This document shows positions 28,449-63,984 of a stretch of DNA of 64,000 nt, piece by piece. The DNA is taken from NCBI GenBank assembly GCA_030581615.1, contig JAKTTT010000010.1, positions 186,001 to 250,000 of the forward strand, in the 5' to 3' direction. Position 1 is the first letter of the stretch. Every line of letters begins with the position of its first letter. The notes beneath the pieces were generated by a model. The model was given only the letters and a program-made list of their open reading frames with translations. It was not told where the DNA came from and searched no databases. A program made the translations under genes and the position numbers. The stretch comes from Alloascoidea africana. Its lineage: Eukaryota > Ascomycota > Alloascoideomycetes > Alloascoideales > Alloascoideaceae.

Positions 28449-29113
28449 ATGTCCAAGAATATTGGAGCGGTGAGAGCCGAAAAGACGGTCAGGAATAAAC
28501 GACGACGGAAGAAGAGAAGAACAGAAGGTATGATGGACCAGATCGTGGAGGAGCAATGAAATTTTCACTAACTTTTCACTTTTCTTCTTTTTTTTATTTC
28601 ATTTCATCATGTACAGATTTTTCATCAGACTCGGACTCTTCCTCATCAGATGAAGACACCAGGGATACGAGTAATGCCTCTCATGCGATGGACGTGGATG
28701 ACGAAGTTACAGAAACGATAAATTCGGGCCATGTGACTGCAGAGATCGATGGGATAATAAAAGAAGAAGCAAATAAGAGAGGATCAACTGCGTCAGGTCC
28801 AGGGCCCTCTCTCAGCACTGAAGAGCGGGATCTTCTGAAATTAAAACTGAAAAAGTTCGACATCTACTCTGATTTACCTTCAAACGAGACTGAGGACAGA
28901 CACAACCTTCGAGCTACGCCACAGGAAAGGTTACAGCGAGCTAAAGAAGCCTATCTGCAGCTTATTACAAACGAGTTTAGCGATGACTTGGACTTGCTGA
29001 GACAGGCCTCGGATTTTGGAGGGAAAAGCATACCGATATTGGTCCGGTCTCTGAGCGATGGGGCCAACTGTTTTGACGGAAAACTGATAGATACTCTACT
29101 TAGTGAAGTCTAA
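28449..29113 (+). CDS. RSA3: Ribosome assembly protein 3
   Basis: Nucleolar factor in 60S ribosomal subunit maturation. Two exons: 28449-28527 and 28617-29113, 191 aa (yeast 220); intron GTATGA to CAG. The N-terminus is Arg/Lys-rich (VRNKRRRKKRRTED), followed by a Ser/Asp run (FSSDSDSSSSDED), which is normal for Rsa3. The family domain is at the C-terminus: FSDDLDLLRQASDFGGKSIP and VRSLSDGANCFDGKLIDTLL. The call rests on this domain and overall layout. Confidence 0.85.
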
Positions 29114-29159
29114 CTAGACCAGGCCGGCCTCTGCCACGTTATCTACGAGTAGATACCAT

Positions 29160-29262
29160 CGCGTAGCCCGCCAGCTTGCCCCAGCTCGCCCCAGCTCGCC
29201 TCATCCCACGGCCGTTCTTCCATTTCCCGCCAGCCCAGCCCAGCCCAAACACCCGGACACCC
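29160..29262 (+). repeat. C-rich imperfect repeats in the STB3 leader
   Basis: Short imperfect repeats of GCCCCAGCTC and CCAGCCCAG make this stretch far more GC-rich than its surroundings. Probably promoter or leader sequence. Confidence 0.5.
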
Positions 29263-29362
29263 ACTCGGAGTCATCCTTCCACGCTTGTTCCCCAGATTGG
29301 GGAGCAGGAGTGGAGAAATAGTCCCAGCATTTGTTATTCCATTTGTCACTCTTCACCATAAG

Positions 29363-34600: not shown

Positions 34601-36962
34601 ATCGGTTTGTTGAGAATCTTCTGGTAATCTTAAAGACTGAAGAAAATCCCGTAATGCACCTACAAAATCCATAGTACTGAAATCAAACAGTCCAATGAAC
34701 GAATGCAGAACATCGACTCTGTGGTCATCGTCACCAACCAAGAATTTCCCGATTTGAGTCTTATCGAGTCCATCTGTAATTTGCAAAAAACGTGCAATGC
34801 TAAGAGGGTTATTGGAATCTATGATAGAGTTACCCAGTAACTGTTTAATGCCTTGTTCTGGGTTGTAATTGAACAGTTGGATACCTTCCGAAAGAGTCGT
34901 CTTGGTTTCGAGTTCCAGTGGTTCATCTTGGGATGTAGGCTCAGAGGAGTATTCTGGTGATGAACAAGAGGTACTGTTGGTGTATTGGCTGATCTCATTC
35001 CTGAGCCCAATATCCTTTTGGGACCAGGTGTAAAAAGAACGCAAAATACTGACAATGCATTTCATGGATTTTTGCTTTAATGCGTACTCAATAGGGAAAA
35101 GATCCAATTGTTGGTATTGGCGTTGTATCTGTTGATGATAAGCAGGCGAAGACAAATTGTTTATGGCGATGGTTGGGAGGGAAGATAGGGAATAAGTAGC
35201 AATTGACTTTCCAAGACTCCAATCGTAATGAGATTTCTGGTTTGGTAATAGAGGAACATGCGCAGTTGTTGTCTTGGCCAGATACCCAACCAGTTTTTCT
35301 AAAATGTTGTTCATTGAAGGATCACGATCATAATTTAAATATAATTCAATGAGCGCCCGTGGATCATTACAAACACGATTGATCACAGATAGAAAATACT
35401 GTTTTTGGTGTGCCGTAGAGGTTTTCGTTTCAGCAATTGGGAAATAGATTTCAGCAAAGAACACTTCAATCTCTCTTTTAAACTGACTTCTAAGGTTGCA
35501 CAGTAACAACCAAAAAATTTCAATAGAAATTTCAAACACTGGGGGCACTTTGCTGGTTGCATTCTGTGATAAACATAGGCAGATATATGGGTTAATTGCA
35601 TCGACAAAGACTGCATCGGCTTCGCTTCCAACAAACCTGACGGTGACATTATCTGAGAGTAACAGATTCATGCGAGATTTTAAAATGGAGTGAATCATAT
35701 GAAGAGATAAAATTTTTGATTTCATGGTAGGAGATTTCATATTTGTGTTGCTGACCAAAGGCTTGATGGATCTTTGGCAAAGTGCTTTGAGAAGTAGAAA
35801 TGCGTCCTTTGCTAATACGCTATTGTCTACACATCTCGTTCCCAGGAACTCAACATCCTCATCGTCACTAGTATCAATCTTTTTCATATCTTCAAGAGTC
35901 AACTTTTCTCTCTCTTGCTCATTCAAGGTTAAATTAATTGAGGACTGTAATGCCTGAGGATATGTTCCTTTGTGATACGTTTTCACCGAGTCGAAAATGG
36001 TATCTACCATTTGAGTCAAACTGGCCTCTGCAGTTGCCTGAATTCCAGGAGAAGAAGTCAAAACGAATATATCATAAACCTGGTTAGCTATCGAGATGAG
36101 TGTTGATCCATGTATTCCAATCTTATCGTTCAACAGAATGGACATGAGAGCTTTGACCACTTGCAGTTGAACTTGCTCATTGGTGCGCTCGCCAACGAAA
36201 CAAGCGGAAATTGTGTCAATTATGTCCTTGATCAGTGCTTTTAGTTCCATGTCATTTTCAGCCGTTGGATCCTGGAGTTCAAAGTTGGTCCAGGCACAGA
36301 GCTTGCTTATGGCGTCAAGCGTCGCCACCTTGAGTTCATTATTCTTCGTCTGAGATGCGAGTTTTAAAGGCTTGAACAACACTTGTGGCGAAGGAGTCGA
36401 CTTGCTTTCCAGTTGATCTTTCCATTAATGTTAGAAAACTGCTTTAAATACAATGGATATAACTGAGCGCCTTTTCTAGCGTACCTAATGCCTCTGTTGT
36501 CGCTTTTGATAATGAGACATTCCTTTTTGTCTCTCTGCTGGTGGCTATCTGCTTCAATGCCCTTTTTATAAAAACAAGAGAAAAGGAATCGGACTTTGGC
36601 ATGGCTGCTGACGAGGAAACAGCGTGTCCTGATGTCGTTTCCTCTTCCCTTCTCGATAACGTTGGGGACGGGGCAGGGTTTGCAGCAGTGTGTGAAGATT
36701 CAGGACTATACGGCTCTCTGGAGGAGACCCGGTCGGCCACTGTGGACAGAGTGTGACTTTCCAAAGAGGATCTCGTCGGACTGGATTCGCTCTTAGAGCC
36801 CATTTCTGCAGTCTCTATAGAGGTCTCTGTAGAGGTTTCTGCTTGGCCTGTGGTGGAAACCTTGACACAGGCGTGTTTTTCTCCAGACTCCACATTCACG
36901 GGGAGATGGCGGCCCATTCGCGAGGATGGAGAAACAAGGCGCTCTGAGCCGGTTTGTGGCAT
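31637..36962 (-). CDS. SEC7: Arf guanine-nucleotide exchange factor Sec7 (BIG family)
   Basis: Activates Arf1 at the trans-Golgi. Two exons: 36962-36485 and 36417-31637, 1752 aa; intron GTACGC to AAG. Order: DCB region (NEQVQLQVVKALMSILLNDK), HUS region (RSIKPLVSNTNMKSP), Sec7 domain at about 668-855, then HDS domains (YNMSRIRVEWLKIWAIMSEQ, HDILMHSSNLEVRSRTLKFL). The DCB/HUS/HDS layout marks the BIG/Sec7 class. Odd: the glutamic finger, LPGE in Sec7 proteins, reads LPED here (codons at 34616-34621), so the catalytic Glu position holds Asp760. Motif 2, usually LNTDLH, reads LNLNLH. Exon 1 is Ser/Thr-rich and less conserved. Confidence 0.92.
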
Positions 36963-37167
36963 TTGGTTCCCACTTTACGAGGCGAGATAGACCCTATTAC
37001 GGTTTCTAAAAACAAATGAAAGGGAAAAGGGGAATGGAAGGAGAAGAGAAAGTGACGCTTGTTCAACTTTGTGTACTCGTTTCTGATACAAAAACATATG
37101 TGTGGATGTTCCGAAATCCTATGGAAAAAAAGATCGATCGAGATTTATAGATAGGGATGAAAAGGGA

Positions 37168-38112
37168 TTACTGGGAGGCCGCGGGAGCACTCTGGACGGG
37201 CTTTCCCAGATATTGTCGGATGAGCTGCTTGAAGGTGATCCAACCCTGTTTGACGCCACTGGGGGCTCCTGGATGGGCCACCAGGCCGTCGATTCTCACT
37301 TCCCAGACTCGCAGAATGTTCCGAATGAAGGCCGACTTTTCGTAGCGCAATTTGATGAAGACGACGTAAATGGCAAAGATCGCAATTGCCTTTAGGTTGA
37401 AGGTGAACACTCGCAGCGCAAGGTAGACCAGTAGCAGTAGCTCCAAATTGGCGCTGACAGCAATCGACTTGTCGTTGTAGTTTTGCACAAACGCACCAAT
37501 TGCCTGAGGCAGTTTGCTGGAGGTCGGGATTCCAAACGCTGGCACAAGATACGCGCGTGTGTAAGTCAAGACGTGAAAAAAGGAGAAGATTACGAATGGG
37601 AAGATCGTAAGCGTGATTCTGGAGTAGAGCAGCCAGACAAACGCTATCAGAAGATATTGAACGTTGTCGTCTGTCAGCATCGCCACCGGGTTGATCGAAC
37701 GGTGCTTGTACGACTGGAAAATAATGATTCCAAAGGACTCGATAACCGCCACATAGATCAGCTTATACCAGATGTTGGCGTACTTCTCGCTGGACCTGAA
37801 AGAGCTCAGATAGAGTATTGTGCTGAACAGAACAAGAAAATGGCCTAAGACAATTGTTTCGGTATGTTAGTGGCAAAGCTGAGCCCGGCAGCACAGTAAA
37901 ACTCGGGCATCGTTCTTACCTAGAAACCAGGAGAATTGAATGGTCTTTAGGCTCGGGGTTAGTTGAGGATCTGGAAGGGAAAAATTCAGGTCCACATTGC
38001 TTACCTTTGCCAGCGCAATTAGATTTTCCTTCACGTCCACTTTCGCCCTGGTCTGGCTTGCCGAGGGATGGGACGACGACGAGGAGGAAGCAGATGGCTC
38101 AGCAGCGGGCAT
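37168..38112 (-). CDS. POM33: TMEM33-family nucleoporin/ER protein (Pom33/Per33)
   Basis: A multi-pass membrane protein of the ER and nuclear pore periphery. Three exons: 38112-38005, 37944-37920 (25 nt) and 37844-37168, 269 aa. Introns GTAAGC/AAG and GTAAGA/TAG. After a Ser-rich N-terminus comes ENLIALAKTIQFSWFLGHFL, typical of TMEM33, which confirms both junctions. Several hydrophobic segments follow (YLLIAFVWLLYSRITLTIFP, FVIFSFFHVLTYTRAYLVPA). I cannot separate Pom33 from Per33. It is divergent from the NASP-like gene. Confidence 0.85.
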
Positions 38113-38502
38113 TTCTGGGAAGACGGAGTGCACAGAGGGCTATCAGAACTGAAATCAGAGGACTGCTGATAGGTGACGGAGGAAGGAAATGGGCGGTTGG
38201 GAGGAAGTTTTCTGCTGGATTCCATCCTGCTCCACCACCACAGCCCGAAGCCACAGCGGAGGACCGGCCATTGAGCAGGGGAAACCGGAGAGCTCCGGTC
38301 TCAGAGAAGGGGCACAGGCTGATGAGCACTCTTCAGGGCCAGATCCGCCATCTTGACCGCAAGCCGGCCGGTCTGGCGTTGGCTTTCTTGCTCTGATACG
38401 GGCTCTGGGGGACTCTGGAAAGGCCGGGTTACCCTCCGGGAGGGAGAGCGAGAAACGCGTTTTTAATTCTCTCCAGCGATTGTTTGACGAACACTCGCGA
38501 CG
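38113..38502. promoter_or_regulatory. Divergent promoter POM33 / NASP-like chaperone
   Basis: 390 bases, GC-richer than average. It contains CCGGGTTACCCTCCGG at 38424-38439, with TTACCCT (a near-Reb1 core) in a partly palindromic setting. No gene seen. Confidence 0.4.
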
Positions 38503-39680
38503 ATGGGTTCAGAGGAAAAGTACAGTGCCGAGGTCAAAAAGCTCATCTCGGAGGGAAACAAAAGCTATGCACAGAAGGACTATGAATTGGCTTCGGACAA
38601 GTATGCTGAGGCCTGTGAGATTTACAATACACAGACAGGCGACGACGACGCGGATTTGCTACTGCTATACGGCAAAGCTCTTTTCCAAATAGGAGTGAAA
38701 AAGTCGGATGTCTTTGGAGGCACAGGCAACGATGCTGTTGCTCCTAAGGGTATAGAAAAGGATTCCGAGAAGAGTGAGGTGGAAAACAATGGCCAGTTTC
38801 AGTTTACAGATGATGTGAACGACGCAGAGGACGAAGCGCCGGCTGAAGATGCCAAAGCAGAGGGAGAAGGCGAGGGCGAGGAAGACCAGGGATCTTCGGA
38901 CTTTGAACTGGCTTGGGAAATCCTGGATCTGACACGGAATCTGTTTGAGAAGAGAATTACGGCTTTAGAACAGGAATCGAATGGAAAGGGAAAAGGAAAA
39001 GGAAAGAAGAAGGAGACAGATGTAAGCGAAACTGGAGTTACAACGGATTCTCCAGCAATGATAGAGTTGAAAAAGAGACTGGCAGAAGCCTACGATCTTC
39101 TTGGTGAGGTATCTCTTGAATCTGGTAAGTTAATGGTTCATGCGTGAGACCTTAAATATTGACCCAATGCTAACGCCAACATTTAGAAAACTTCCCACAG
39201 GCAGCCCAAGATCTATCCTCTACTCTGAAGCTGCGGCAAGAAATCTATCCTTTCCACTCGACGTTTATTTCGGAATCCCATTACAAACTTTCCCTTGCCC
39301 TGGAATTTTGTGTTGAGGATGAGAATGCTAGAGAAAAAGCAATCTCAGAGATGGAAAAGGCAATAGCGAGTGTCACGGAACGGATAAAAGACTCGGGAAA
39401 TGACGAGAACGATGAGAGTCTTTTAAACGATTTGAGGACCCGTCTTGCAGATTTAAAAAAGTCAGAAAACGACCTGCTGCAACAGCAAAAGAATGCAATT
39501 TTGGAAGGTATAATAGGAAAAGCAGCTTCATCGTCATCAGCATTTGCTTCTACTGAAGGGAAATCGGACCTTGTTGGTGACGCCAGCACTGTTTCTGTCT
39601 CGGCAAATGATATTAACTCTTTGGTGAAGAAAAGAAAAGCGCCTAAAGCTGATGGGTCTTCTAAAAAGGCCAAAAAATAG
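38503..39680 (+). CDS. HIF1: NASP/Hif1/Sim3-family histone chaperone
   Basis: Nuclear H3-H4 chaperone. Two exons: 38503-39124 and 39187-39680, 371 aa (yeast Hif1 385); intron GTAAGT to TAG. TPR-like helices: KLISEGNKSYAQKDYELASD and KYAEACEIYN, then LLYGKALFQIGVKKSDVFGG. A long acidic insert interrupts the second TPR (EDEAPAEDAKAEGEGEGEED), the hallmark of the SHNi-TPR family. After splicing, ESENFPQAAQDLSSTLKLRQ and SESHYKLSLALEF form the later TPR. The C-terminal coiled coil leads to a basic KKRKAPKADGSSKKAKK, a likely nuclear signal. Confidence 0.88.
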
Positions 39681-40704: not shown

Positions 40705-42426
40705 ATGTCCGGCGCGAACAGTTTACCCCTAGCTGGGACCCGGAGAGGACGGTCACCGGTGAGAAGTGAGAATAATGATGGGAGTACGAGAAGAAGGAAG
40801 AAGAACAGATGGAGTGCACCGGGAGCAGAAAACAGAATTGCAAATTTGATCAGTATGCCCACAAGCATATCTGGGAGTATGACCAGTGAACAACTGGAGG
40901 CCTATACGATAACGCTCAGAATTGAAGAGATTACTCAGAAGATACGAATCAACGATGTTGTACCCAATGAAGATGAACGGTCACCTTCGCCACCGCCACA
41001 GTATGACAGCAAGGGTATCAGAACAAATACTCGAGAGGTTAGATACCGCAAGAAGCTCGAGGATGAAAGGCATATGCTTGTTGAAAAAGCGCTAAAGACG
41101 ATTCCCAATTTTAAACCACCTGCGGATTATCGACGGCCTCAACAGACAAGGGAAAAGATATACATACCTGTAAAAGATTATCCTGAGATTAATTTCATAG
41201 GGCTGATTCTGGGTCCTAGAGGAAACACGTTGAAAAAAATGGAACGTGAATCGGGTGCAAAGATAAACATTCGAGGCAAGGGTTCTGTTAAAGAGGGCAA
41301 AGGTCAAGCAGACTTGGCGTTACAAAAAACTGAAGAGGATGAACTTCACTGTGTTGTGACTGCAGACACGGAGGAGAAGAGACAAAAGGCGATTGATCAG
41401 ATTAACAAAATCATCGAGACTGCTGCGTCTGTTCCTGAGGGCCAGAATGAAATGAAGCGAGGGCAATTGAGAGAACTTGCAAAGTTGAACGGTACTCTTA
41501 GAGACGATGACTTTAGTTCGACTCGTGATAGAGATTCTAGACAGAGCTACATGGCGAAAATGGTGTGTCGAGTATGTGGTGGTTTGGGACATTTGGCAAG
41601 AGACTGTAAGAATCGACCCAATAACTACCGTGGTGGGTATAATAATGGCGCACCAATGTTACAAGGCGCTGATCAAGAATACGACCAACTGATGAAAGAG
41701 CTTGGTGGTGGTGGTGGTGGAGGAGCAGGTCCAAACGATATGCCTCGACATCCCATCGGAGCCATTGAAAACCGCCCTGGTGCTGGTCCTGCACCTTGGA
41801 ACAGAGGTCCAAACCACCATGACTCACAGACTCTTCCAACAGGGCCAAGCGGCGCTGGTGGCGGCGGGCCAGCACCTTGGCAGAAACACCAAGGATATGG
41901 AGGAAATGGTTACAATAGGAACAATGATCGTGATGGGCAGCACAATGTTCATCCTTGGTCTCGAAATGATGGCAACGACAGATTTCCAAGAGATAGAAAT
42001 TCCCATTTTAACAATAACAATGGGAATCGATACAACAGAGACTATAATAGCAATAATAATAACAACAACCGAGGGCCTCCATCCCAGCCACAATTTGAAC
42101 AATCCTATTCACAATCTCCTGGTGGTGGCCGTCTCGGTGGTTCTCGTGGTTATGCCACACCTGCTCCTCCTGGTGCACATCTCCAAGACCCATCAACAAT
42201 ACCGTCAGCATCATCGTCATCACCTCCACCACCATCATTTCCTGGTTCTGGCATAGCGGGACCTCCTGGTCTTACAGCTCCACCTGGATTAACCGCACCT
42301 CCTGGTCTTTCTGGATTACCAGGGTTACCAAGTTCAAGCTCAGCTCCCCCTCCTCCTCCCGGTGGATCTCTAAATCTTCCTCTTCCTTCAAAGCTTCCTC
42401 CTCCTCCTCCTCCACCTGGATTGTGA
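40705..42426 (+). CDS. MSL5: Branchpoint-binding protein (SF1/BBP)
   Basis: Recognises the intron branch site in the commitment complex. Single exon, 573 aa from ATG 40705. Seen: N-terminal RKKNRWSAPG (the SPSP/W region that meets U2AF), helix-hairpin around SPPPQYDSKGIRTNTREVRY, KH domain FIGLILGPRGNTLKKMERES with QUA2, and one CCHC zinc knuckle CRVCGGLGHLARDC. Yeast Msl5 has two knuckles; I see one here. The rest is Gly/Asn/Pro-rich, ending in a poly-Pro tail (PPPPPPG), likely for WW or FBP-type partners. This factor reads the CTAAC elements seen throughout the window. Confidence 0.95.
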   Translation: MSGANSLPLAGTRRGRSPVRSENNDGSTRRRKKNRWSAPGAENRIANLISMPTSISGSMTSEQLEAYTITLRIEEITQKIRINDVVPNEDERSPSPPPQYDSKGIRTNTREVRYRKKLEDERHMLVEKALKTIPNFKPPADYRRPQQTREKIYIPVKDYPEINFIGLILGPRGNTLKKMERESGAKINIRGKGSVKEGKGQADLALQKTEEDELHCVVTADTEEKRQKAIDQINKIIETAASVPEGQNEMKRGQLRELAKLNGTLRDDDFSSTRDRDSRQSYMAKMVCRVCGGLGHLARDCKNRPNNYRGGYNNGAPMLQGADQEYDQLMKELGGGGGGGAGPNDMPRHPIGAIENRPGAGPAPWNRGPNHHDSQTLPTGPSGAGGGGPAPWQKHQGYGGNGYNRNNDRDGQHNVHPWSRNDGNDRFPRDRNSHFNNNNGNRYNRDYNSNNNNNNRGPPSQPQFEQSYSQSPGGGRLGGSRGYATPAPPGAHLQDPSTIPSASSSSPPPPSFPGSGIAGPPGLTAPPGLTAPPGLSGLPGLPSSSSAPPPPPGGSLNLPLPSKLPPPPPPPGL

Positions 42427-42764: not shown

Positions 42765-45700
42765 CTAATGGAGTAAATCTCGTATAACATCATTTTCACA
42801 AGCTTCTAGATTAACAGGTGTTATTGAGTAATTACCCTCATAAACCTGTAAACTAAGAGAATCAAAGAAAAACTTGAGCTCATACAAGTTTGATATTTTT
42901 TTAGGATTAAAGCCAAACAACAAAGGTATTCTCTTACCTTTATTCCCAGCTTTATCCTTCATTGCGCTAACCAATGAATCATGATCACTGGATATTGGCT
43001 TAACGATGCTTAGTTCAGAAAGTCTATCAACGATACCAAATGGGGGATAATCGGGAGATCTGAAAATTGCATCCATGTTATCTGTAATGAAAAGCCATTC
43101 ATCCAGTTTAAATTCTTCATATCCAACACAAAGAAGTAGGTCCAACAATTTACAAGCACTGGCAAGTGAAGTAAGATCAAGATTTGCCTGACCTTCGTAA
43201 TCTTCAAACACTTCTGCAAACATGACCTGTAATTCGGAATAAATCATGTTCCAAACCACTGGTAAATGAGTTTCTGAAAACCTGAGAACTATGGCTCTAA
43301 GACAAGTGAAAACATCGGCTTTTATCGAGTATCGACCTGTATTTGATCCCAATACCTGGTTCAACTTTATCGTTAATTCTTTTAAACTTGTCAAAAAATG
43401 ATCTTTCTTACAAGAAATGAGTAAATAGGTGATTCTTTGAATGTTTAAACTTCTGGTTGTGGCTTCTTGATCTGACCAACCAAATAAAACATTTGTATTT
43501 GAAGAATGGGCCGAAATTTTGGCAACATAATCTGTAAAGCTTCCTGTATCCGATTCGATCCATTTTCGAATGATTGGAATCCATAATGTATTTGTTGGAT
43601 AATTTAACTTGAAAAATTGGGATTCTGAGAAAGTATCCACAACAATACTTTTCCAAAATTTCAAACTTTGTATACCATTATTTTCACCAACTGCTAAAAG
43701 CAATTTGATAAGGTAGGCTGGTAAGGATAATGGGTAGGTTTTCGATTTCATTGCAGGATGGAAAAGACTGGTTAGAATCAATGAAAGAGAATAATTCACT
43801 TTATCCGAATCTTTTAGGATAAGTCTAATGGTTGATGAAATTTCCGTCAAAGTTCCACATAAATCCTCTTGTGTAAATTTATCACTTCCACTCGTCGCAA
43901 TGGTGGTTGCGCTTGTCATTTCCAAAAAATCCGATTTCTCTTGTTGTAATTCATTCCCATTATTATCCACACTGTTATTTTCATGTAAAGATGAGGAGGA
44001 ATCCAAACCCAAATTTGTCGTTGTTGTCAAAGAAGCTCTTGAAGATAAAACTCCTGATAACAATCTTGTAAACGAATCCGAAAGTTCTTTTTGAATTTTT
44101 TTCGATTGGCCAAAATTCACTTTATCAATCTTGATAGCCAAAATGCTTGTCAATTTTAAAAAAGTTGGATATAAATGTTTAAATTGGGAAACATTTGTTA
44201 AAACCTCTTTTAAAAAAACCATCATATCGTTCCAAATGTCCTCTATAGCATCGGATTCTAAAGAACTTGTATAATCATTTAAAAAAGTTGCCAAAATTGA
44301 ATCTGTAAGTTCGGTCAAGGTTGATTTTATCTTGATCATTTCATTTCGATTCATTCCTGCTCTACTCATAATTGAATGAAACAATGGTGTTACTGTAATT
44401 CTTGGTCTTGCACCATCCAAAATATGGAAAATTTTGAAAACGTGAGAATTCCCAGTTGTTTCATTCACATATCCAACCTCAATCAACGTTTCCAACATAT
44501 CCACAGTTTCCATTTTATACAAATTTTCAAGCAATTTTTTGGAACGAAATTTAAGTCTTGAAGAATGATAAATAACCGATTCGTTCGTTTTGCTAAGTAA
44601 CCAAGTAGGATTATTTGATTCAGCCCATAACCAAATCAAATATGCCGTTTTACAAGCATGTTGGAAACAAAGTATAACCGTCAATCTATTACTCAAATCT
44701 TTCCGATTTGCATGAGGAGATTCAACGGATAAAACTCCTGAAATCACCCCGAAAAACCCCCCAGTTGTTCCTTGATCAACAGGTTGTTTTGTTTGAATAT
44801 TTTGGGATTCATGTTCCAATAATCGATCATGTGCAGCTTCAAGTATTGTTTCCAATCCATGGAAAAGTGAAAAAATAACCTGGTCAAAATCAATTGTATC
44901 TTTTACAAAAACTTGGTTATCCGATGATGATGTTGTATCATTGGAATCATCTGAAAAAGCCATTTTCAAATTATCGAAATGAACAATGATTTGAGAACAG
45001 AGACAATCAACCAATGGGATCAAATTTTGGAAACATGAATCATTAGAATAGGTTAGAATATCAATGTATAAACCAATCCAACTGTTTAGGACCATTTGGT
45101 TTACAGATGTGGAAAGTCCTTCCACCAAAAATTGAACCTGATCATTTGGTAAATTCCGATCATCACTATCCATTTTGGCAAAAATCCTTGGTAATGCATC
45201 ATGAGTTTTCAAAGATGAAACTTTGAGAAATCGAGATAACGATTTTAACAATTCGATTTGTAAATAGGCACAATTGTGTTTATTGTTATATGAAACAATT
45301 GTCGTTATCAAAGTCCCCACGATTATTTCAAAGTATGGTTCATTACCATCAACCAACAATTCAACAAGATCCAAACAACACTTGTTAATTTTGCCAAAAG
45401 TTTGGATAAAAACTTTTGATGGTGGGTTGTTATTATTATTATTCAAGGGCAATTTCGAAGTGATTATACTTGTGATTAAACTTAACAATACACCTTTATA
45501 AGTCGAATCTGTGATTTTGGAAGAATGATTTGGATGAATAATTGCTTTAAGAGCCGGATCTGTCGTTGCAATCAATTCAGTTTTAAAAGATTTTTGAACC
45601 AATGTACTATTTGTTGATAATAGTACAAGACGAATAGTTTTCATATAATAAAAAAGCATATTCAAATCATCATCTTCTTCTTTCAATTGGGTTCTCATCA

Positions 45701-48391
45701 ACAATGGGAATTTTGTAATTGGAGAAACAAGTGCATTGTATAAACGATTTGCAGAACCTGAACCTGAACGAACCGTTGATTCTATCCATGAAACCACAGC
45801 CATTGATTCTTCATCATCCAAACCATTATTATCCAAATAATCCAATAATAAAAACAATGGACGTGTCATTATAAGACTATCTGAATTTGTTCTTTCAATT
45901 CGATGTGTCCATAATGCACCAAAACCCCTTGTTTTTTCATAAATTGTGAATTCATTTGATAAAAACAATTTTGAAATGATTGCTTCAATCAATCGATTAT
46001 CTTCCAATTGATCTTGAATTTGCCATAACAATTTCACAACATCAACTTGAGAATTTCCGGAAAGTTCAATTAAATGATACCATAACAATTTTGTAATTGT
46101 TATTAAAAGATTTGTCTTTTCTGCAATTGTTAAACCAGAAGAAATACTTTTGAAAATTTTGGTCAAACCAAAGGTATAATTTGAATTTTGAACAATATTG
46201 TTATCAATTTCAAATAAAGTTGAAACCAAAAGTTCATTTTTCCAATTTTCAATAGATGGGATTTTTTCAACAATTGTTTGAAATAAATCGCCCATATAAT
46301 TCAATTCCATTGAGGATTTTTGATTTCCTTCTCCTTCTCCTTCTCCTGCTGTTGCAGTTGCTGTAAGTACAATTCTACTTGTGACTCTTGAAATTGTATT
46401 TAAAATCAATAATGAAATAGTTGCATGTTGGAAAGGAGGATTTGTCGAATCATTATTACTATTATTGTCATCATCACGTTTATAATAATCGTTGATTTTA
46501 TCCAATATTTCATCATCATTGTTAAGATCAAAATCGTTTTTTTTAGGAGCATGTTCAACGGGGATAAATGCACGTTCAGGAATCAATTCAAGAACAGTTT
46601 TTGTACATTTGAACCATTCTGGATTATTCGTTATTGAATTCCGTTTGTTTGTTAAAATGAGTAAAGATAATAGGATTAATGGTAAATGATTCACAACCAT
46701 TTCTTCATCATTAACGTTAAAATTTTGTAAAATGTAAAATAACAAGCCCAAATCCGGCTCCTCATCATCTTGTTCTCGGGATTTTTTATTGATTATAAGT
46801 TTGAAACAATCACTCCAAATATTCATTGCTTCAACACCATCGAAAAAAGATGATGCACTTTTAATAATCTCATTCATTTCTTCCTCAGTATACAATTGTT
46901 TCTCATCCAATTTTTGTAAACTTTCCATTATAGGCATTAAAACACATGGAACAATTTTACTTCCAATTTCCCATCTATCCATAAGACTTAGAGAGATTTT
47001 GAAAGGTTTTGTGATTTCTGAAACGGAGGTGATTTGACCATTATTTGAAATTTGTTTCAATAATCCATTTGTCAATGGTAAATATCCATATTTTGCAAAA
47101 TACTGTTCACATGTGAGTGAATTTGAAAATGTAGCAGAAACAGGAGTCGCAATCGGAGTCATAGTAGTCGTGGTCGCAGTGGTAACGGAGGAGGCACCGG
47201 GACCCGAAGATTCTGAATGATCTAGAGGATTTGGACCAAGTAACCAATTCCATAAACGTCTATTTAAAGACATGTCTTTTTTCAAAACTGTTGAACAACA
47301 ACTCATAACCAACAATTCCAAATTATTTGCGGATGATAAGGATTGTAAAACACCACTGTTTAAATGAAGTTTTTTCAACATTAGATCGAAAAAACCTCTT
47401 TGAACCAATAGTTGAGAATCTTGTAAACCTTTACGAAATGCAGTGATCATAAGGCCAGGGTCTGGTGAAACTGCTGCTCTTGCTTCATAAGTCAAGGAAT
47501 CCAAAATTGCCAGTTTTTGTCTTTGATTACTCCACCCATCATCGAAATGATCAGGTTCAGATTCTGAATCCTTTTGTGCAAGTGTACTGCTGCTGTTGTT
47601 GAAAGAAGGTAGTCTCCTATTTGCAAAAATCAATGCCCCTAGTCTTCTATCCTCGGACGTAATCACAACCAAGAAAAAACATTGCCAAAAATGACTATCA
47701 TCGTTAATTTTCGTTTTAAAATCATCGATCAATTGGAAAACCAGATCGAATGATTCACTTGATTCATCATCTATACCGGGCAATAACGATAATAATATCG
47801 ATTTGAGCAAGACACGTAGACATAAGGGAGGCAATTCCAAGATATATTTTCGAAATAGTTCAATTAATGGAGGTTTTACATTAATACTTGCATAGGACAT
47901 TAATGGTAATAAACCTGGAATCCATATACTTATTGATTGAGAAAGTTGTTCATGACCCAAAGTTTCGAAAATGAGATTGTAAACTTGTAATGTCTTTTGA
48001 TGAACACCACTTGGTAATGATGGATTTAAACATCTTGATAATCTTTTACCGACTTGGAAATCTGCAGGAATCCAATTTGGAATTGTTGGATCATGATTAT
48101 GATGTGTTTTCAAAGCTTTTGCCAATTTACCAAGAAATGAAATATAATCTGCCCATTCTTCAACGTTATCGAATAATGTCAGAGCTCTATCCACTGCAGC
48201 GGCGTATTTTCGATCTTTGTGATTTGTATGTTGTGCTACCCCAAAACTGTTAGTGATGATGATGATGATGATGATTTAGAGTATGTCCAAATGAAAATAC
48301 AAGACATGCCATCAATTGCCCGGTTATGCCTAAACGGCATAGGGAATTTGGAGACACCGGTTTGGGATGGGTTTGCCGAGGAGGAATCCAT
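42765..48391 (-). CDS. DOP1: Dopey-family protein Dop1
   Basis: Large endosome/late-Golgi protein that works with Mon2 and the flippase Neo1. The main exon is 48235-42765; it reads AQHTNHKDRKYAAAVDRALT then NVEEWADYISFLGKLAKALK and FQVGKRLSRCLNPSLPSGVH, the conserved Dopey N-terminus. No ATG lies in frame, so an upstream exon is needed. My best choice is 48391-48358 (MDSSSANPSQT), giving 1834 aa with GTGTCT/TAG; a GTATTT site near 48300 also keeps frame. The C-terminal Leu-rich Dopey repeats are present (LASACKLLDLLLCVGYEEFK). A CACTAAC branch site and an (ATC)n run sit in the intron. Confidence 0.9.
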
Positions 48392-48572: not shown

Positions 48573-49285
48573 TTACGATGTTGGTTGTTGCTTCAACGTC
48601 AGAGGAATTCTCATTTTGAACTGGTCAGCATCATCATCACTGGTGCCTTGAGGCGGCAGACGGAAACCAGCAGAGTCATCGGTTGTCAACAAATCATTCA
48701 TTGGCCTCTCCCAGAGAGATCCCAGGTCTGCCGGGGTCATGATCATTGATCATTGATCATTGCTCTGTCTCTGTCTCTCCGGGAGCCCGGCATGATCGAT
48801 GGGGCGGTCAGTTTCCTAGCCATTGGCTTGCCAAAGGAATTGATAGTGGTGGTGATCTCGTCATCACAATCAACATGGTGATCCGGATAGGCTCTACGCA
48901 AGGTATTCTAGCCCCATACGGCAGCAATCGAGCAGATCTGACAGGCGCTCCGTGCGGTTTCGCTGGTAGATACGTTGACGACGGGATTCTGTGGGAAAGT
49001 CGTACATGTATGAAGTCAACGAGCTGGTTCACGGACTGGTCTGCGGATTTGAAGCGTCGATCGGCACTGTAGATGACGTAGTCGGAGGACGTAGTCGGAG
49101 GAGTGTTCAATCAGGTCTTCAATGTAGCCGTCAAGCCGCCAAAGCCGCTGAGGTTTGTATCCCCAGGGGCTCGCCCCAGCAGCTAGACCGTGACGACCAG
49201 GTAGAAGCCGCCCACTCGGTTGGCGGCCTCGGTCGACGTCTCGAACAGGACGTGGTTTCGCTCAGTTGCGAGAAGACGGGGCTAG
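48573..49285 (-). pseudogene. GSY: Glycogen synthase relic, internally deleted
   Basis: Scattered blocks of fungal glycogen synthase occur in the correct order on the minus strand. N-terminus at 49260-49202: NHVLFETSTEAANRVGGFY. Then TNLSGFGG (49165-49141) and GYIEDLIEHSSDY in a different frame; [17 protein letters not shown] (49065-49015); [20 protein letters not shown] (48989 on); a trace of the PLSVPGSPRD region; and MTPADLGSLWE (48742 on) near the C-terminus. The jump from about residue 25 to about 500 (yeast Gsy2 numbering) removes most of both Rossmann domains. Stops and frame changes separate the blocks. No function is expected. Whether another intact GSY exists elsewhere is unknown. 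Confidence 0.85.
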
Positions 49286-50272
49286 AGAGGACTAGAGAGA
49301 AGAGGATGAGTACCCAGTGAGGCTATCTATCTATCTATCTATATGGCTATCCAGATTGATATCCAGATGGACATGGAGATGGATATCGAGATGGACATTG
49401 TGGGCCGGGCGTGGGCCAGGCGCGCTGAGAGACCCGGTATCTGCGCGTACTGTAATCAGGGCAGCCCCGGACGTGCCTCCGGGTGCCGGGTGCGGCCCAC
49501 CACATGGCGGCAAGTAGCAAAACAGATGAAACTGGCCTCAGAAGCTCGAAGCTCGAAGCTCGAAACGAGAGACGAGCATCAGAAAGCGAAGCTCGAAAAC
49601 GGCAAGGGACAGGAAAAAAACCAGAGGCAGAATCCCAGGGTCCGCGAGACAAGGGTGCCCAGGAAGCCCAGGAAGCCCAAGCTTTGCCGGGAAAATACGC
49701 CCAGAGGACCCATTTTTGCGTTTTTGGTCCTGCCATCCTTACTCTTATTCTAATTCTTAATTCTCAGCCTTGTGATTCTTATCTTGGATACTGCTCAATA
49801 GCATTCGGGCTCGCCAGGGTGTTTGCAAAGGTTTGTGTCCAGTCCCTCGGCCGCCGAACCCCCAGCGAGAGCCCGAAAGACCGAGAGACCAAGAGCCCGA
49901 AAAAGCGTGTTTCGTACCGCGGGCGGGAATGTTGAACAGCTGGAAAAGCTCTGCTGAACAGCTGCAAACAAGCGAAAAGGCAAAAAAGAAAAAGCTTCGT
50001 CCTGGCCCGTCGACGATGACGAGATCGATTTGCGGCTGGTGGGCGTGAGGATCTGGATTGGTGCTCGTCTGTTCATTTTCATTTTCTTTTTCTTTCGCCT
50101 GGTCGTGTGGCCTTTCCCTTTCCCTTTCCCTTTCCCTTTCTTCCTCTTTCTCTGGTTTCTCCTTCTCTTTCCCCATGGCCCTGGCTGTTCGCTCCCGTTG
50201 AACAACATCCACGTCCACGTCCACGTCCACCTCTCCTAGTTCTCCTAGCTCTCCTTCTTCTCGGCTCACACC
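49286..50272. other. GC-rich intergenic region upstream of AUR1 with simple repeats
   Basis: About 1 kb without a credible gene. It contains (CTAT)n at 49322-49341, tandem AGCTCGA units near 49538-49562, (CCTTTC)5 at 50111-50140 and (CACGTC)n-like repeats at 50208-50231. Long open frames here are by-products of high GC content. Confidence 0.5.
50111..50140 (+). repeat. (CCTTTC)5 hexamer repeat
   Basis: Five perfect hexamer units upstream of AUR1. Confidence 0.9.
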
Positions 50273-51790
50273 ATGCCTCCGCGCTCCCTGCTCAAAACCA
50301 TCCCCTGCCGCATCTACTCGACCCTCACAAACGGCCGCTCGCCCTGGGGCCTCGTCCGCAACTTTGCAAAAAACTTCTCTCTCATCTTCCTCTGGCTCTT
50401 CATCTTCAAAAACGCCGGCGTGATCCCCACAGAATGGCGTCCGCACATCTTCGTCAGCCTGATACCGGCCCTCGAGTCTCTCGTCTTCGAGGGCTTTTCC
50501 GGCCTGCTCTTTGGCGCCCTCATCACCGCAGCAGGCTGTCTGCTGGCCCTCTTCATCCGCTCGTCCCTGCCCGCAACCAAAGCCCTCCCCCAGTCCCATC
50601 AAAACAAGACGACCTGGCTCAAAATGCTGCCCTTTGCCCTCGTCTGGCTCTATCTCAACCTGGACCACTTCTTCTCCACTGAAAACTACTACACCCCGGC
50701 CCTGGACATCGCCGCCTGGCTGTCCTACGTGCTCGGCCACATCACGGCCCCCATCGTCACCGCCGTCTACCTCTATCTCTTCTGTCCACCAGGCATATGC
50801 GGCCTGTTCGGCCTCGCCCTGGGTCTCCAGAACCTCATGGGCGTCTTCACCCATCTCGTCTTCCCGAACGCTCCCCCTTGGTATAACGAGCTCTACGGTG
50901 ACATGCCTGGTAATTACTCCATGCCCGGGTACGCTGCTGGACTCACAAGAGTCGACCTGGCCCTGGGCACCCATCTCAACTCAAAGGGCTTCCACATGAG
51001 CCCCATAGTCTTTGGCGCAGTCCCTAGTCTCCATTCCGCCTTTGTCTGTATGATTTTCTTGTTCCTGGTCAGATACGATAATTGGAAACTCAACATTACA
51101 ATCGCTACAATCTATCTCAACTGGCAGTGGTGGGCAACCATGTATCTTAGCCATCACTACCGGATCGACCTCATTGTGGGCCTTGCCTATTCCCTAATCT
51201 CCTATTCCATCTTCTTACCGAAACTGGTCCGTAAAGAACAAAGTTTTTTATCGGATTCTCAGGCTAAAACTGGTGGAATGAGGTTGTTTGCTGGCACCTT
51301 TTTAGAACCTTTTTTCAACTCTTTGGGTTATCTTTCAAATAGATACGTTTACATCCGTGATGACGAGGAACAGCAACATGCTCATGAATATTCCTACCCT
51401 GATGGTGATGTCTATATCAACATGACAAGCGCTGTACAGTTTTCCTCATCATCTGCAACTTTGGCAGGATATGATGAAACATCAAGTACAAATAAAAATG
51501 TAAATACAAAGGATCAGCGGCGGCAACAACAAAACTATAATAATAATACTAGTGATGATGATGATGATGATCTGACGTGGTCTAAAGGAGCAACACAAAA
51601 AAATGAACTTTCATTGGGTATCTATTCAAATTCAAATTCAAGTGATATTAACCTTATGGAGAGACAAATCATAAGTTCAAGTTCTCTTTTCGGTTCAGAT
51701 ACTGAAAATGAAAATGAAAATGAAAATGAAAGTGGAAGTGGATCATCTTTTTCAGATTCAAATACGAAAACAAATCAACCCAAATTTTGA
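50273..51790 (+). CDS. AUR1: Inositol phosphorylceramide synthase catalytic subunit
   Basis: Golgi enzyme that moves phosphoinositol from PI to ceramide; target of aureobasidin A. Single exon, 505 aa (yeast 401). Several membrane helices; the lipid-phosphatase-like active site is visible in GAVPSLHSAFVCMIFLFL and MYLSHHYRIDLIVGLAYSL, which hold the catalytic His, His and Asp. The upstream LGLQNLMGVFTHLVFPNAPP motif is Aur1-specific. From about residue 310 the protein becomes a low-complexity tail with Asp, Asn, Gln and ENENE runs, about 190 aa, longer than usual. Codon usage shifts from GC-rich to AT-rich near 51240. Confidence 0.95.
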   Translation: MPPRSLLKTIPCRIYSTLTNGRSPWGLVRNFAKNFSLIFLWLFIFKNAGVIPTEWRPHIFVSLIPALESLVFEGFSGLLFGALITAAGCLLALFIRSSLPATKALPQSHQNKTTWLKMLPFALVWLYLNLDHFFSTENYYTPALDIAAWLSYVLGHITAPIVTAVYLYLFCPPGICGLFGLALGLQNLMGVFTHLVFPNAPPWYNELYGDMPGNYSMPGYAAGLTRVDLALGTHLNSKGFHMSPIVFGAVPSLHSAFVCMIFLFLVRYDNWKLNITIATIYLNWQWWATMYLSHHYRIDLIVGLAYSLISYSIFLPKLVRKEQSFLSDSQAKTGGMRLFAGTFLEPFFNSLGYLSNRYVYIRDDEEQQHAHEYSYPDGDVYINMTSAVQFSSSSATLAGYDETSSTNKNVNTKDQRRQQQNYNNNTSDDDDDDLTWSKGATQKNELSLGIYSNSNSSDINLMERQIISSSSLFGSDTENENENENESGSGSSFSDSNTKTNQPKF

Positions 51791-54736: not shown

Positions 54737-55939
54737 ATTTGTATGTGTGAATGTACAGAAGTAATAATATAAGAGAGAATAAAAATAGAAAGATGAGGGA
54801 GGATTGACAAGAAGAAAAGAAAATAAACGGAAAAGTAGTTCGCTTTTATACCCCGGAACCCACGTTCCGAATCTTCGACCGTTTTCGACGCACGGAAGGT
54901 GGAAGAAAATTATAGAGGTCTGTGTGGGTGTATGGGTTTATCCCCCCCTTCGGGGCTTAAAACGGCAGATTGCCGTATTGGGCCAAAAACAAAAACACAG
55001 GGCACGTGAGCTTCACACAGTAAAGTTTAACATGAAATACAAAATCATGAGGTATGGAAGGAACTGGAAGTTGGAATATATAATTGCATCATAGAATCTG
55101 GTTGCAGATGTCGGTCTGAGTTGGTATTCTTTATTGGTATAAAGTATGTGTTTTCTACGGTCTGCTATTTTTCCAATAGCAGGGTAGACAGCATGTGTTT
55201 TCCGTGTAAGTTTAGCTCTCATAATCTTCCAAAGGTTGAAATTTTTTGTTGTTTTTCTCTCTTGGGAATAACAACCAACCTTATGTGAAGTGTCACCAGT
55301 TGGATAAGTTTTGCTGGAATCGAGTTTTCAAAAGCAGATTTTACCAGGAGGACATTCGAGAATATCTGCCAAAATTTCGCTTCTTGGTTGAAACAACAAG
55401 TTGAATCAAATAAATGAAAGCAACATTATCACAATCGGTACATATTCATAATGGCGCTGATTTTAGTTAGAAAGTGGAATTGATATGAAAAGGGAGATAT
55501 CCTCCTTTAAGCGCGTCTACGAATCACGGGGATACAGACAACCAACTTTTACAGTTTCGTTCTTATTCTTTTCATATCAATACTTTATCTATGGGGCCGA
55601 AGCAAACGTTTGAAACAATATATCTTTTTTTTTTTGATACTTGTTAAAATTCGCCCAGCTTTGCTTCTGATGAAACGCTTTCCGTGCCACAAATAGGGAG
55701 AAATACAATTACAAGTATTTGCTGAAAATGCGATGGACCCAACACACAGTAGAATTGTATTAAAGATTTTTTTGATGTGGAGTACAGTTACCCAAAAGTG
55801 CCAAGAGGTACTTGATCAGCTGGCTGAATGCGATCTCACAGAATCGTCAATATGATTAACATATAAGACCCAGCTATTTTTCAGAAAGGAGGTCTTTTTC
55901 TCTAGACAGAATTGTACAGGCATATACCCTTTGCCCATC
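54737..55939. other. HSP70 upstream region without genes
   Basis: About 1.2 kb. Holds the HSP70 promoter and, at about 54960-55010, a module with TTGGGCCAAAAAC and CACGTGA that recurs near 56870-56920. The rest, about 55020-55940, shows no gene. Confidence 0.45.
54843..54876 (-). promoter_or_regulatory. HSP70 promoter: TATA box and heat-shock-type element
   Basis: TATAAAAG on the minus strand (54843-54850), 107-114 bases upstream of the HSP70 start, and GAATCTTC (54869-54876), the nGAAnnTTCn unit of a heat shock element, with further GAA/TTC units nearby. Role inferred. Confidence 0.6.
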
Positions 55940-56300
55940 CTCGATCAGACTCTGCTTTCTACTCGGGATCTTCTTTACGTTCGCGTCCTACAATTTCCCT
56001 ACAAGATTGATGCTTCCAAAGAAGCCCTTGCAAACACTTTGGCTGTACGTAAGTACATCTAGCAGCACTACAATGCTGTCAACCCTCCGTCTTCTCGACC
56101 TCTCCAAAAAGGCGAGTTGATCCTTCTCTTTGATTCAGTTCGAGGTAAGCCAGAGGAGCATAAACTCAAAGACCGCTGGTTGGGACCTTACATCATTTTC
56201 TAGCAGTAAACGGCAATGACACCTACAAATTGCCCGAACTAAATGGAGTTCCTATGGAGAAATCCCGTACCGGGATTCATCTTAAGCTTTTCTAGTCAGT
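55940..56300 (+). mobile_element. Ty3/gypsy-type retrotransposon fossil (integrase C-terminal part)
   Basis: A broken remnant of the pol 3' end. The recognisable part resembles the C-terminal GPY/F module of Ty3/gypsy integrases, including RWLGPY. No gag, protease, reverse transcriptase or clear terminal repeats were identified. It carries several breaks and looks old. Edges are approximate; flanking sequence to about 56850 may include further decayed element DNA. Confidence 0.6.
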
Positions 56301-56993
56301 TGATTCGCCCTCAATACATAAGAGTCTTCGTCAATCTGAACCTGGTCGCGTCACTACCTTTGATGGAAAATAGATTAACACATCCATGGTTTGATTCTTC
56401 TCCAGTTTGTTCTTCTTTTTGCCTTCGCTTTTGCCGCCTTTAAATTCTTCCTAAATTTTCCTTCAATTTCTCTAACTTGTGACTCTTCATATTCCTACTT
56501 GAACCCTCATATTCCCTTATTACCTTCCAATACGCGCTTTGTCTTCCTTTATACTTCTCTGCCTTTGTTCTCTTTCCTCAGTTTCAGTAATTTCAGTCAG
56601 CGTCGTGTGCTGCTGACCACTGATGTTTGGAGGCTAGTTTGGTGTCGTGTGGCCCTGACTGTTTTGAGCACTCCATAGGTTAGATGCCTGACCAGTCGAT
56701 AGAGTTTGTTTCCTTGGTTTGAGTGTTAATTGGTAGTTCGTTCAGTTCAGTGCGCTTTTCCTCGTTTCCCCCATCTTTTAGTTGCTCTGGCCATAGCCTT
56801 CAGGACATAGTTCCTAGCTTTTGGCTTTCTCTGCCGACAGTTCTTCTAGGTTAGCTGTCATGTATTCGAAAACAGCATACTTCCGCATTGGGCCAAAACC
56901 AAAACATATGCACGTGACGATGTTTGGGATGGAAAGTAGAGTTTTTAACGCTGCCAACAGCGTGTTTTTTGCACATAGTAATAACAGCTAGAG
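56300..56993. other. Region between retroelement fossil and the next gene
   Basis: About 700 pyrimidine-rich bases with no gene. Near its right end lies the second TTGGGCCAAAA/CACGTGA module (56873-56917), about 80 bases before the next start codon. Confidence 0.4.
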
Positions 56994-57764
56994 ATGAAGA
57001 GGAGCAGAGAAGTCGAAATTGGATTTGGAGTCGGGATTGAGAATTGTTCTTCGCCATTGGGGTTGAAATTGGAACAACAGCGCCCTTTCAAGAGATGTAA
57101 GACACGACCTTCTTTCATCGCGAGCCCATCCCGTTCAGACTTCATATTGGACACAGTTAGTGCAGACCAAGTCTTGGGACTGATCACACGGCGGAGGAGC
57201 TCAGACTCGACCGTTGCAGTGAAAAGTGATATCCAGTTATCAGAGTTGAAGGCTGGCAAGAATGGAACGTTTCTGCTCTTTATTGGTGCTATTCAGTATG
57301 ACTATTTGAAAACCGTTAGGTATGAAAGTTTGGACTCTTTTTTCACTGTTCACAAACACTAACTGCTAGAGAGATAGCGAGGCTTATCATAGTCTTAAAA
57401 CTATTCATAACTTGGAGATATACGGTGTGGCTGTGAACTCGCCAGCGAATCACAACTTTTCCTTCCCCATAGGTTCGTATACTGGTCGTTCAAAAGAAAA
57501 AAGTCAAACGAACACTTTGCTAACAACAGCACGATATTTGTGCTAGTTCATGATAAAAATCGATTGTTGACCAAGTTTTTCGACGCGTTTGATCCTTTAG
57601 GAGGCGGTCATTTCCCAATTGCATCTCTGGGATTACTGGATGGATCAGGTAGGAAAAGGTCATATCTACCAATTGGTTTCGGGAATGGGATAATGAAGCC
57701 CATACCTTCAAACAAAATTCTTGATTTTATCATGGATTGTACGGATTATCTTGCAAAAGAGTAA
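56994..57764 (+). CDS. Unrecognised three-exon gene
   Basis: No family recognised. Exon 1 starts at ATG 56994. Exon 2 is in the frame giving EAYHSLKTIHNLEIYGVAVN; it ends at 57476 with GTATAC, and exon 3 (57530-57764) follows CTAACAACAG. The first intron is ambiguous: GTATGA (57320) to GAG (exon 2 at 57372), or GTTAGG (57315) to TAG (exon 2 at 57370); products are 221 or 220 aa. The N-terminal 60 residues are basic (RPFKRCKTRPSF). The rest looks like a compact alpha/beta domain with TIFVLVHDKNRLLTKFFDAF and DPLGGGHFPIASLGLLDGSG. A CACGTGA site sits 77 bases upstream. Coding is supported by matched phases and composition; function unknown. Confidence 0.6.
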
Positions 57765-58611
57765 TAAGGGTTGTTGAACGAGTTTTGCGACAATGAAACA
57801 AGTTGAACTCAAAAATTGCAAACGCAACTAATTGAGCAAAATGCTAACCTCTTTTTTTGCAATCATTAATGCCAACACAACACATATATATCCAACATCT
57901 TGTATAGTATTTCACACACACCCAGTTGGTCTTATGGTGTTTAATCACGAGTGAAAAAAAGGAAAATTTAGGAGTTGTAGTTAACGAACTAGGATACATA
58001 ATTGCTAACGAATGGTTCAAAAACCCACATTATTGTTTTGCAATGAGGATGGAAATGTGACACTGATTGCTACCCGTTGTCACGGCGGTGATTTATTCAA
58101 CACAATAATTTTCTGAAAAGTCACAAAAATATAAACTGCTATATTGATTTTTGATGGTAGCAGGGTTCTGACCTTCAACTATATGAGGAAGGGCCTCCTC
58201 TTATATAGTTCTTTCTAAAATAAAACCTACTTCTGTCTTCCATTCTTCCAAATACGTCTTTATCTGTTCATCATGATTCCTATTCCTTCATTCTGAAGTT
58301 CTGGTAGGACAAGGAAACGCCAAACATGTACCTTTGGTTTATCGTGACATATATGTAAAACTCTTCATAGGCCTACACTCATTTCTATCCAACCCCTTCT
58401 TTTCCCAAAGGGCAAAATTTGATGATTTTTTTCTCTGTTAAACTCCTCCACAATCAGCATCGCGAGCAAAATTGAAAAGATGTTGGAGATCTTGGTTGGT
58501 TTCTCTCTTCTTCCTCTCCATGCCCATATTACCCGGCCACAAAGCCATGTTCCAGAATATTTATTGTTCTACGTTCAGTGCTCACGAATTATCTATCATT
58601 TTCTATTTATA
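57765..58611. other. Intergenic region before cactin
   Basis: About 850 bases. It contains an imperfect palindrome (58177-58210, arms of about 16 with AACTATAT at the outer ends) and TTACCCGG at 58529-58536. No gene seen, though the cactin frame is open back to 58480. Confidence 0.45.
58529..58536 (+). promoter_or_regulatory. TTACCCGG (Reb1-like) site upstream of cactin
   Basis: Exact core 76 bases before the chosen start codon. Function inferred. Confidence 0.4.
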
Positions 58612-60168
58612 ATGAGATCGAGCTATAGATCACGAGGCCATCAGCATTCTCACCATGGAAATGGCAACAGGTATAGGAGTTCAAGGTCTCGGTCTCCTAT
58701 AAATCGGAATCGTAATGAGCAAAGATACAAAAGCCGAGGACCTAATGGCCGAGTTACCAACACTGAAGATAACGATCAACTACAGAAATGGTTAAAAGAA
58801 GAGGACAACTTTGTATCACAACAAAAGTTTCGGGGTTGTTTGTTACGGATAGCAGATAGGAGAGATACTCCAATCGATCGAGTGGCGGTACTTTTGAAAC
58901 TGATACATCCAGAGTCCAACATTACAGATATAGAAATGACGAGTAACGACCGGTTCGAGACGCCCCAAATGCCAGATCTGATATACTCGTTGAGTCTAGA
59001 TGAAGTCGATAAGCTCATAACTACAGATATCCCCGATTTCCAAGAATCGGACAAATCCAGCCTAGGCATTCAATATTGGAAGATGGTACTGGTAATCTGT
59101 GAAAGCCGTAAACGAAAGCTGAGCAACATACAGGCTATGGAATCCAGATTAGTGGAACCAGTAATGCAAGACATTGAAAACATACTTAACGGAAAGTCTC
59201 TGGATGAGCTAAGTAAACTGGAGCAGAAAGTACAGGAAACGCTGGCTTCAGATGCTCCTATAGACCGCGATTTTTGGTCCGAATTACTTAAAGAACTGAC
59301 CTTGAGAAAGGCAAGCACGGTGCTTTCGAACATGTATAAGCTGGCTCAAAATATACGGAAAGAAGAGTTTATAATTGCTCAGTTTAATGAATCAACAAGA
59401 GCAAAACGAACTGTAGAGGAAAAATGTAAAGATGATACCAGGATAGGAAAACCTGTGGAATATAATGCGGATTATGAGAGTTCAACAACAACATTACAGA
59501 CATATCCAACAGTTGAGTGTGCCAACAAAATGGATTTATCCGAGTTTTCCACCAGTCTTGAAAATGAAAGACAAAGCGTGAAAGCAAGAGTTTATGTACC
59601 CCATTCTCGATTTAGAAAGCAGTTGGCAAACGCAAACGACCAGGACAAAGAGGATTCACTAGGGATGGCGGTTAGAGACAATGAAGGGGCGTCAATGCCG
59701 CTTGGAGAGAATGAGCAGGATTTTAACAATGAAGAAAAGATAAAAACCAATTCAAACAGGATAAAACCCAGATATTTCAACCGCGTCCAGCTTGGATTTG
59801 AATGGAACAAATATAACCAAATCCACTACAGTTCTGAAAACCCACCGCCAAAAGTAGTCCAAGGTTATCGATTCAACATCTTCTATCCCGAATTGGCACG
59901 ATCAGATAAAGCCCCCTCTTACAAGATCATCCGTGATAGAAAAGGCGCTACAGAGCAGCAGCAGGATAATGCAAATGCAGACCATAATAATGAGAAAACT
60001 TGTATCATTCGGTTCACCTCTCCACCGCCATATGACGATATTGCCTTCCGTATTGTGGATAGAGAGTGGGACTATTCTGCTAAGCGATATTTTGGTTTTA
60101 AAAGCAAGTTTGAGAACGGTGTATTACAATTGCATTTCCGATTCAAGCGAAATTTCTATAGGAAGTAA
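58612..60168 (+). CDS. CACTN: Cactin (spliceosome-associated protein)
   Basis: Cactin is a nuclear spliceosome-linked protein (S. pombe Cay1) absent from S. cerevisiae. Single exon, 518 aa from ATG 58612; an in-frame ATG at 58480 would add a hydrophobic, unlikely N-terminus. N-terminal RS/SR-rich tract (YRSSRSRSPINRNRNEQR), mid helical region (QQKFRGCLLRIADRRDTPID), and the diagnostic C-terminal domain: RYFNRVQLGFEWNKYNQIHY, NPPPKVVQGYRFNIFYPEL, PPPYDDIAFRIVDREWDY and a final LHFRFKRNFYRK. The domain looks intact. It is shorter than animal cactins (about 750 aa). Confidence 0.93.
   Translation: MRSSYRSRGHQHSHHGNGNRYRSSRSRSPINRNRNEQRYKSRGPNGRVTNTEDNDQLQKWLKEEDNFVSQQKFRGCLLRIADRRDTPIDRVAVLLKLIHPESNITDIEMTSNDRFETPQMPDLIYSLSLDEVDKLITTDIPDFQESDKSSLGIQYWKMVLVICESRKRKLSNIQAMESRLVEPVMQDIENILNGKSLDELSKLEQKVQETLASDAPIDRDFWSELLKELTLRKASTVLSNMYKLAQNIRKEEFIIAQFNESTRAKRTVEEKCKDDTRIGKPVEYNADYESSTTTLQTYPTVECANKMDLSEFSTSLENERQSVKARVYVPHSRFRKQLANANDQDKEDSLGMAVRDNEGASMPLGENEQDFNNEEKIKTNSNRIKPRYFNRVQLGFEWNKYNQIHYSSENPPPKVVQGYRFNIFYPELARSDKAPSYKIIRDRKGATEQQQDNANADHNNEKTCIIRFTSPPPYDDIAFRIVDREWDYSAKRYFGFKSKFENGVLQLHFRFKRNFYRK

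Positions 60169-61733: not shown

Positions 61734-63984
<2,251 letters not shown>

Follow-up and report, generated by a model that had tools for sequence, protein, structure and literature searches.

Identity of the remnant

Is the short minus-strand stretch at 48573-49260, lying between DOP1 and AUR1 with its N-terminal end at the high coordinate, a dead gene for glycogen synthase (GSY), which makes the storage sugar glycogen, and if so, how did it come to be there and what would its loss mean? A first-pass annotation of the window (the whole 64,000-nucleotide stretch of DNA analysed here) had described it as a glycogen synthase gene in decay, with an internal deletion. We compared pieces of the stretch with Pfam and with solved structures in the PDB. 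Two of the five pieces submitted to Pfam matched the Glycogen_syn family (PF05693; E=1.4e-13 and 1.7e-6; 50.8 and 27.4 bits against a cut-off of 27), and the other three, each submitted alone, matched no family. The PDB search returned Saccharomyces cerevisiae Gsy2, which we take to be a GT3 enzyme, as the top match for three of six pieces (E=2.1e-10, 9.2e-6 and 3.8e-5), and the remaining three, each searched alone, gave no Gsy2 match.

The minus strand was then subjected to a frameshift-tolerant alignment with S. cerevisiae Gsy2 as the reference. The results revealed three collinear stretches, corresponding to Gsy2 residues 6-28, 528-607 and 615-677 (Table 1). The N-terminal block scored 88 against a maximum of 31, and the block of residues 528-607 scored 228 against a maximum of 41 (100 dinucleotide-preserving shuffles each). 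The C-terminal tail reached 80, whereas none of 200 shuffles exceeded 43. Additionally, a provisional Gsy1 sequence was used as a tblastn query against the whole window, and the locus (E=1.8e-17 and 3.3e-4) was the only one in the window below 0.05. The next-best match (E=0.057, in a helicase gene) and weaker ones were set aside as chance level.

The Pfam family, the PDB matches, the alignment scores against shuffles and the tblastn result all bear out the first-pass description, with significant homology lying in order on one strand. The translated comparison with fungal Gsy that it had proposed, made here with Gsy2 and the provisional Gsy1, was significant at the locus, and the minus strand carries both diagnostic words that it had named, each in a frame of its own, RNHVLFETSTEAANRVGGFY within 49195-49260 and the second within 48897-48983. 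The C-terminal tail (615-677) was absent from that annotation and extends its observation. Beyond the tail, the frame running on from the MTPADLGSL word is presumed to be the old C-terminus of GSY; its stop at 48573 is the left edge of the feature as originally noted, and the piece 48576-48743, searched alone against the PDB, gave no Gsy2 match. Judged by homology and lesions, the remnant is well supported as a dead glycogen synthase pseudogene (GSY, PF05693). The event is of an ordinary type, and the relic is well preserved. No long open frame marks it, so gene finders could usefully be tested on it.

Table 1. Coordinates of the GSY remnant, its parts and lesions, and the GC-rich patches of the window
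Feature	Position	Strand	Basis
GSY pseudogene (well supported), whole remnant	48573..49260	-	Pfam and PDB matches, frameshift-tolerant alignment, tblastn
N-terminal block, Gsy2 residues 6-28, 16/23 identical	49192..49260	-	PDB match, alignment
Main deletion junction, with in-frame TAG and most of a possible PWGY word	49159..49191	-	Alignment coordinates
Gsy2 residues 528-607, 56/80 identical, spanning three frame-changing inserts	48900..49158	-	PDB matches, alignment
Perfect 13-base tandem duplication, shifting the frame inside the SDYVIY word	49075..49100	-	Sequence
C-terminal tail, Gsy2 residues 615-677, 26/59 identical, frame change and stop at 7-base repeat	48708..48898	-	Alignment
Continuation of the MTPADLGSL frame as far as its TAA stop, the presumed old C-terminus	48573..48707	-	Reading frame
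GC-rich patches	8801-9300, 9401-10400, 29001-29700, 36701-37000, 38001-38600, 41601-41900, 48901-51100, 63501-63900		GC in 300-base windows

Lesions in the remnant

The largest lesion is a deletion in which 33 bases stand in place of 499 Gsy2 residues (29-527). A PWGY word at 49157-49168 (Gsy2 residues 510-513) is, from its position, a possible leftover of the deleted part, and if it is counted the gap shrinks to residues 29-509; the tblastn piece containing this word had E=9.7. The earlier estimate that residues of about 25-500 were gone was therefore close, although the aligned gap starts at residue 29 and ends at 527, or at 509 with the PWGY word. The missing residues, 29 to about 509 or 527, make up almost all of the catalytic core, and this GSY copy is therefore dead; the complete core with its nucleotide-sugar site that characterizes a functional glycogen synthase is absent. 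The deleted middle was found nowhere else in the window by tblastn with the provisional Gsy1, and since nothing else fell below E=0.057, the missing part was not relocated within the window.

The remaining parts are also broken. No in-frame ATG precedes the N-terminal block as far back as the nearest stop, which lies eight codons upstream of the first matching residue. The alignment of residues 528-607 requires inserts of 8, 7 and 4 bases, all of which fall inside or beside conserved words, and the middle (7-base) insert coincides with the 13-base tandem duplication; the 6-base discrepancy would correspond to a stretch that is two codons short of its Gsy2 counterpart. By the alignment coordinates, a deletion of about 20 bases separates residues 607 and 615, and the frame change and stop in the tail occur at a 7-base repeat present in two perfect copies (48745-48758). 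The lost start, the stop, the frame breaks and the large deletion bar a full product. Compared with Gsy2 (PF05693, PDB 6u77), the relic is alike in keeping the three stretches in order, arginine-rich stretch included, but some 480-500 residues, the catalytic core among them, and the start codon are absent from it; it also carries several frame breaks and is not an enzyme.

Genomic setting and origin

The order at the locus is AUR1(+), GSY relic(-), DOP1(-), with AUR1 at 50273-51790 and the DOP1 open frame at 42765-48275. The placement between DOP1 and AUR1 in the first-pass annotation stood; both neighbours are open and supported by Pfam (Dopey_N E=1.4e-120 and DOP1_C 1.6e-108 in DOP1; PAP2_3 E=8.9e-15 in the product of 50273-51790). 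We take this PAP2_3 gene to be AUR1, the name given by the earlier reader, which fits. A GC-rich patch at 48.9-51.1 kb (window mean 0.416) extends from the relic, of which it covers the upstream half (0.52 of the length), across the spacer to the end of the first half of AUR1. Third-position GC was 0.91, 0.74 and 0.59 over three relic blocks (23, 23 and 29 codons) going away from the AUR1 side, and in AUR1 it fell from 0.79 in the first half to 0.34 in the second half. A fall in both directions from the spacer suits an old divergent GSY-AUR1 pair, with the three blocks of 23-29 codons being few data.

The remnant is very probably a dead, native glycogen synthase gene that decayed in place. The homology, the order of the blocks, the deletion, the broken frames, the missing start and the open neighbours are seen directly. 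The surviving blocks reach from Gsy2 residue 6 to residue 677 and so include both coding ends, in keeping with decay of a whole gene where it stood, and the case for a native place rests on these two surviving ends together with the GC gradient from three short blocks. The ancestor would have had the order AUR1(+), GSY(-), DOP1(-), with a GSY that once worked at this locus and was divergent from AUR1 across the GC-rich spacer. Constraint would have been lost, followed by a deletion of about 1.4-1.5 kb that took almost all of the catalytic core, while small inserts, the tandem duplication, a short deletion and the short-repeat frame change would have broken the remaining GSY parts; this order of events is the one we infer. 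The remnant yields no enzyme and, apparently not taken over by anything, would now be spacer between DOP1 and AUR1. It is plausible that the decay is recent, given that one block retains agreement with Gsy2 at 56 of its 80 codons, but that block is conserved. The two better surviving blocks, about 70% identical to Gsy2, are in the range of an intact enzyme from a distant yeast but are conserved, so "recent" can be taken only qualitatively.

Two other origins are far less probable. That the piece is a stray duplicate which never functioned at this locus is unlikely: both coding ends are kept in order around the missing middle, and the third-position GC gradient continues toward AUR1. Less probable still, and rejected on the frames and the missing core as read from the sequence, is that the blocks are exons of a shortened protein expressed after splicing, a possibility that the first-pass annotation had raised against its own reading. 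Short introns do seem to occur in genes of the window, going by candidate sites. However, the frame changes sit within continuous conserved words at small inserts, one of which lies on the perfect 13-base tandem duplication; an in-frame ATG is missing ahead of the N-terminal block, and the catalytic core is absent. Because the breaks lie inside conserved words, the blocks are not exons, and no single frame opening with a start codon appears to connect them. A branch-site search at one spacing (CTAACNNAG) gave 5 matches compared with 5.31 expected, which is chance.

Consequences for glycogen

Two consequences are compatible with a native gene that died in place. The first, to which we give slightly less than an even chance, is that one of at least two GSY genes was lost, that an intact GSY still makes glycogen and that the effect is little. 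S. cerevisiae carries GSY1 and GSY2, as described in PMC5812513, whereas the same source describes a single glycogen synthase gene in Yarrowia lipolytica, suggesting that the relic may have been the only GSY. The open cactin gene in the window also faintly hints at a lineage outside the duplicated clade. To our knowledge, S. cerevisiae has no cactin.

The second, standing equally near to even, is that the only GSY was lost and glycogen is no longer made, in which case branching enzyme, glycogenin, phosphorylase and debranching enzyme would be missing or decaying too. A precedent is provided by a clade of four Starmerella species, which are reported to have lost GSY1, GPH1 and GDB1 (PMC12322030), so that GSY loss in budding yeasts has been described previously. 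In both cases a glycogen synthase gene has been lost in a budding yeast; the difference is that the gene is reported there as lost, in a main text that does not use the word "pseudogene" (PMC12322030), whereas here a readable relic persists. In Y. lipolytica, YlGSY1 is described as single copy, non-essential and 67% identical to the S. cerevisiae enzymes (PMC5812513), and it is a functional gene, unlike the relic. Among the 20 proteins of the window scanned with Pfam, none was a glycogen enzyme.

We suggest tentatively, as something a little short of an even bet, that a budding-yeast lineage outside the Starmerella clade lost glycogen synthesis wholly and recently, with the relic of its only GSY still readable between DOP1 and AUR1 and the remaining pathway decaying to varying degrees. 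If the relic was the only GSY, this would be a naturally glycogen-free yeast, caught while a widespread storage pathway decays, and comparison with relatives could reveal the first pathway gene lost and the replacement of glycogen. If another GSY copy exists, the relic would reflect routine duplicate loss.

Other observations in the window

The long frame of DOP1 has its first in-frame ATG at 47900, downstream of much of the conserved N-terminal domain, which begins at residue 19 of the open frame starting at 48275. At 48236-48391 on the minus strand, a candidate first exon of DOP1 (ATG 48391) and a 74-base candidate intron would join this frame without a break; the intron signals are GCATGT as a GC donor, CACTAAC as the branch site and TAG as the acceptor.

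Eight GC-rich patches (at least 0.54 in 300 bases) occur in the window, several of them around gene starts; one cause may be GC-biased gene conversion at hotspots of recombination. The cactin gene (PF09732, PF10312) is open at 58426-60168 on the plus strand, and other splicing factors are a SYF1/CLF1-type HAT-repeat protein (5814-8273) and an MSL5/BBP-like protein (40705-42426). From an HSP70-like frame (named by eye) to cactin, a stretch of about 3.5 kb (54938-58425) has a longest stop-to-stop frame of 125 codons. Scans of the whole window for tRNA and Rfam families returned nothing, 54938-58425 included for Rfam.

For the OSCP piece, the best-scoring solved structure was 5lqx_U, presumably from Ogataea/Pichia angusta, and for UBA1 the best-scoring ones were 6nya/3cmm chains, which we take to be from S. 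cerevisiae. By-eye counting placed 11 of the 17 CTG codons of UBA1 on leucine of the 6nya/3cmm chain, and the other six on V, V, I, S, Q and F. The organism is likely a budding yeast that reads CTG as leucine.
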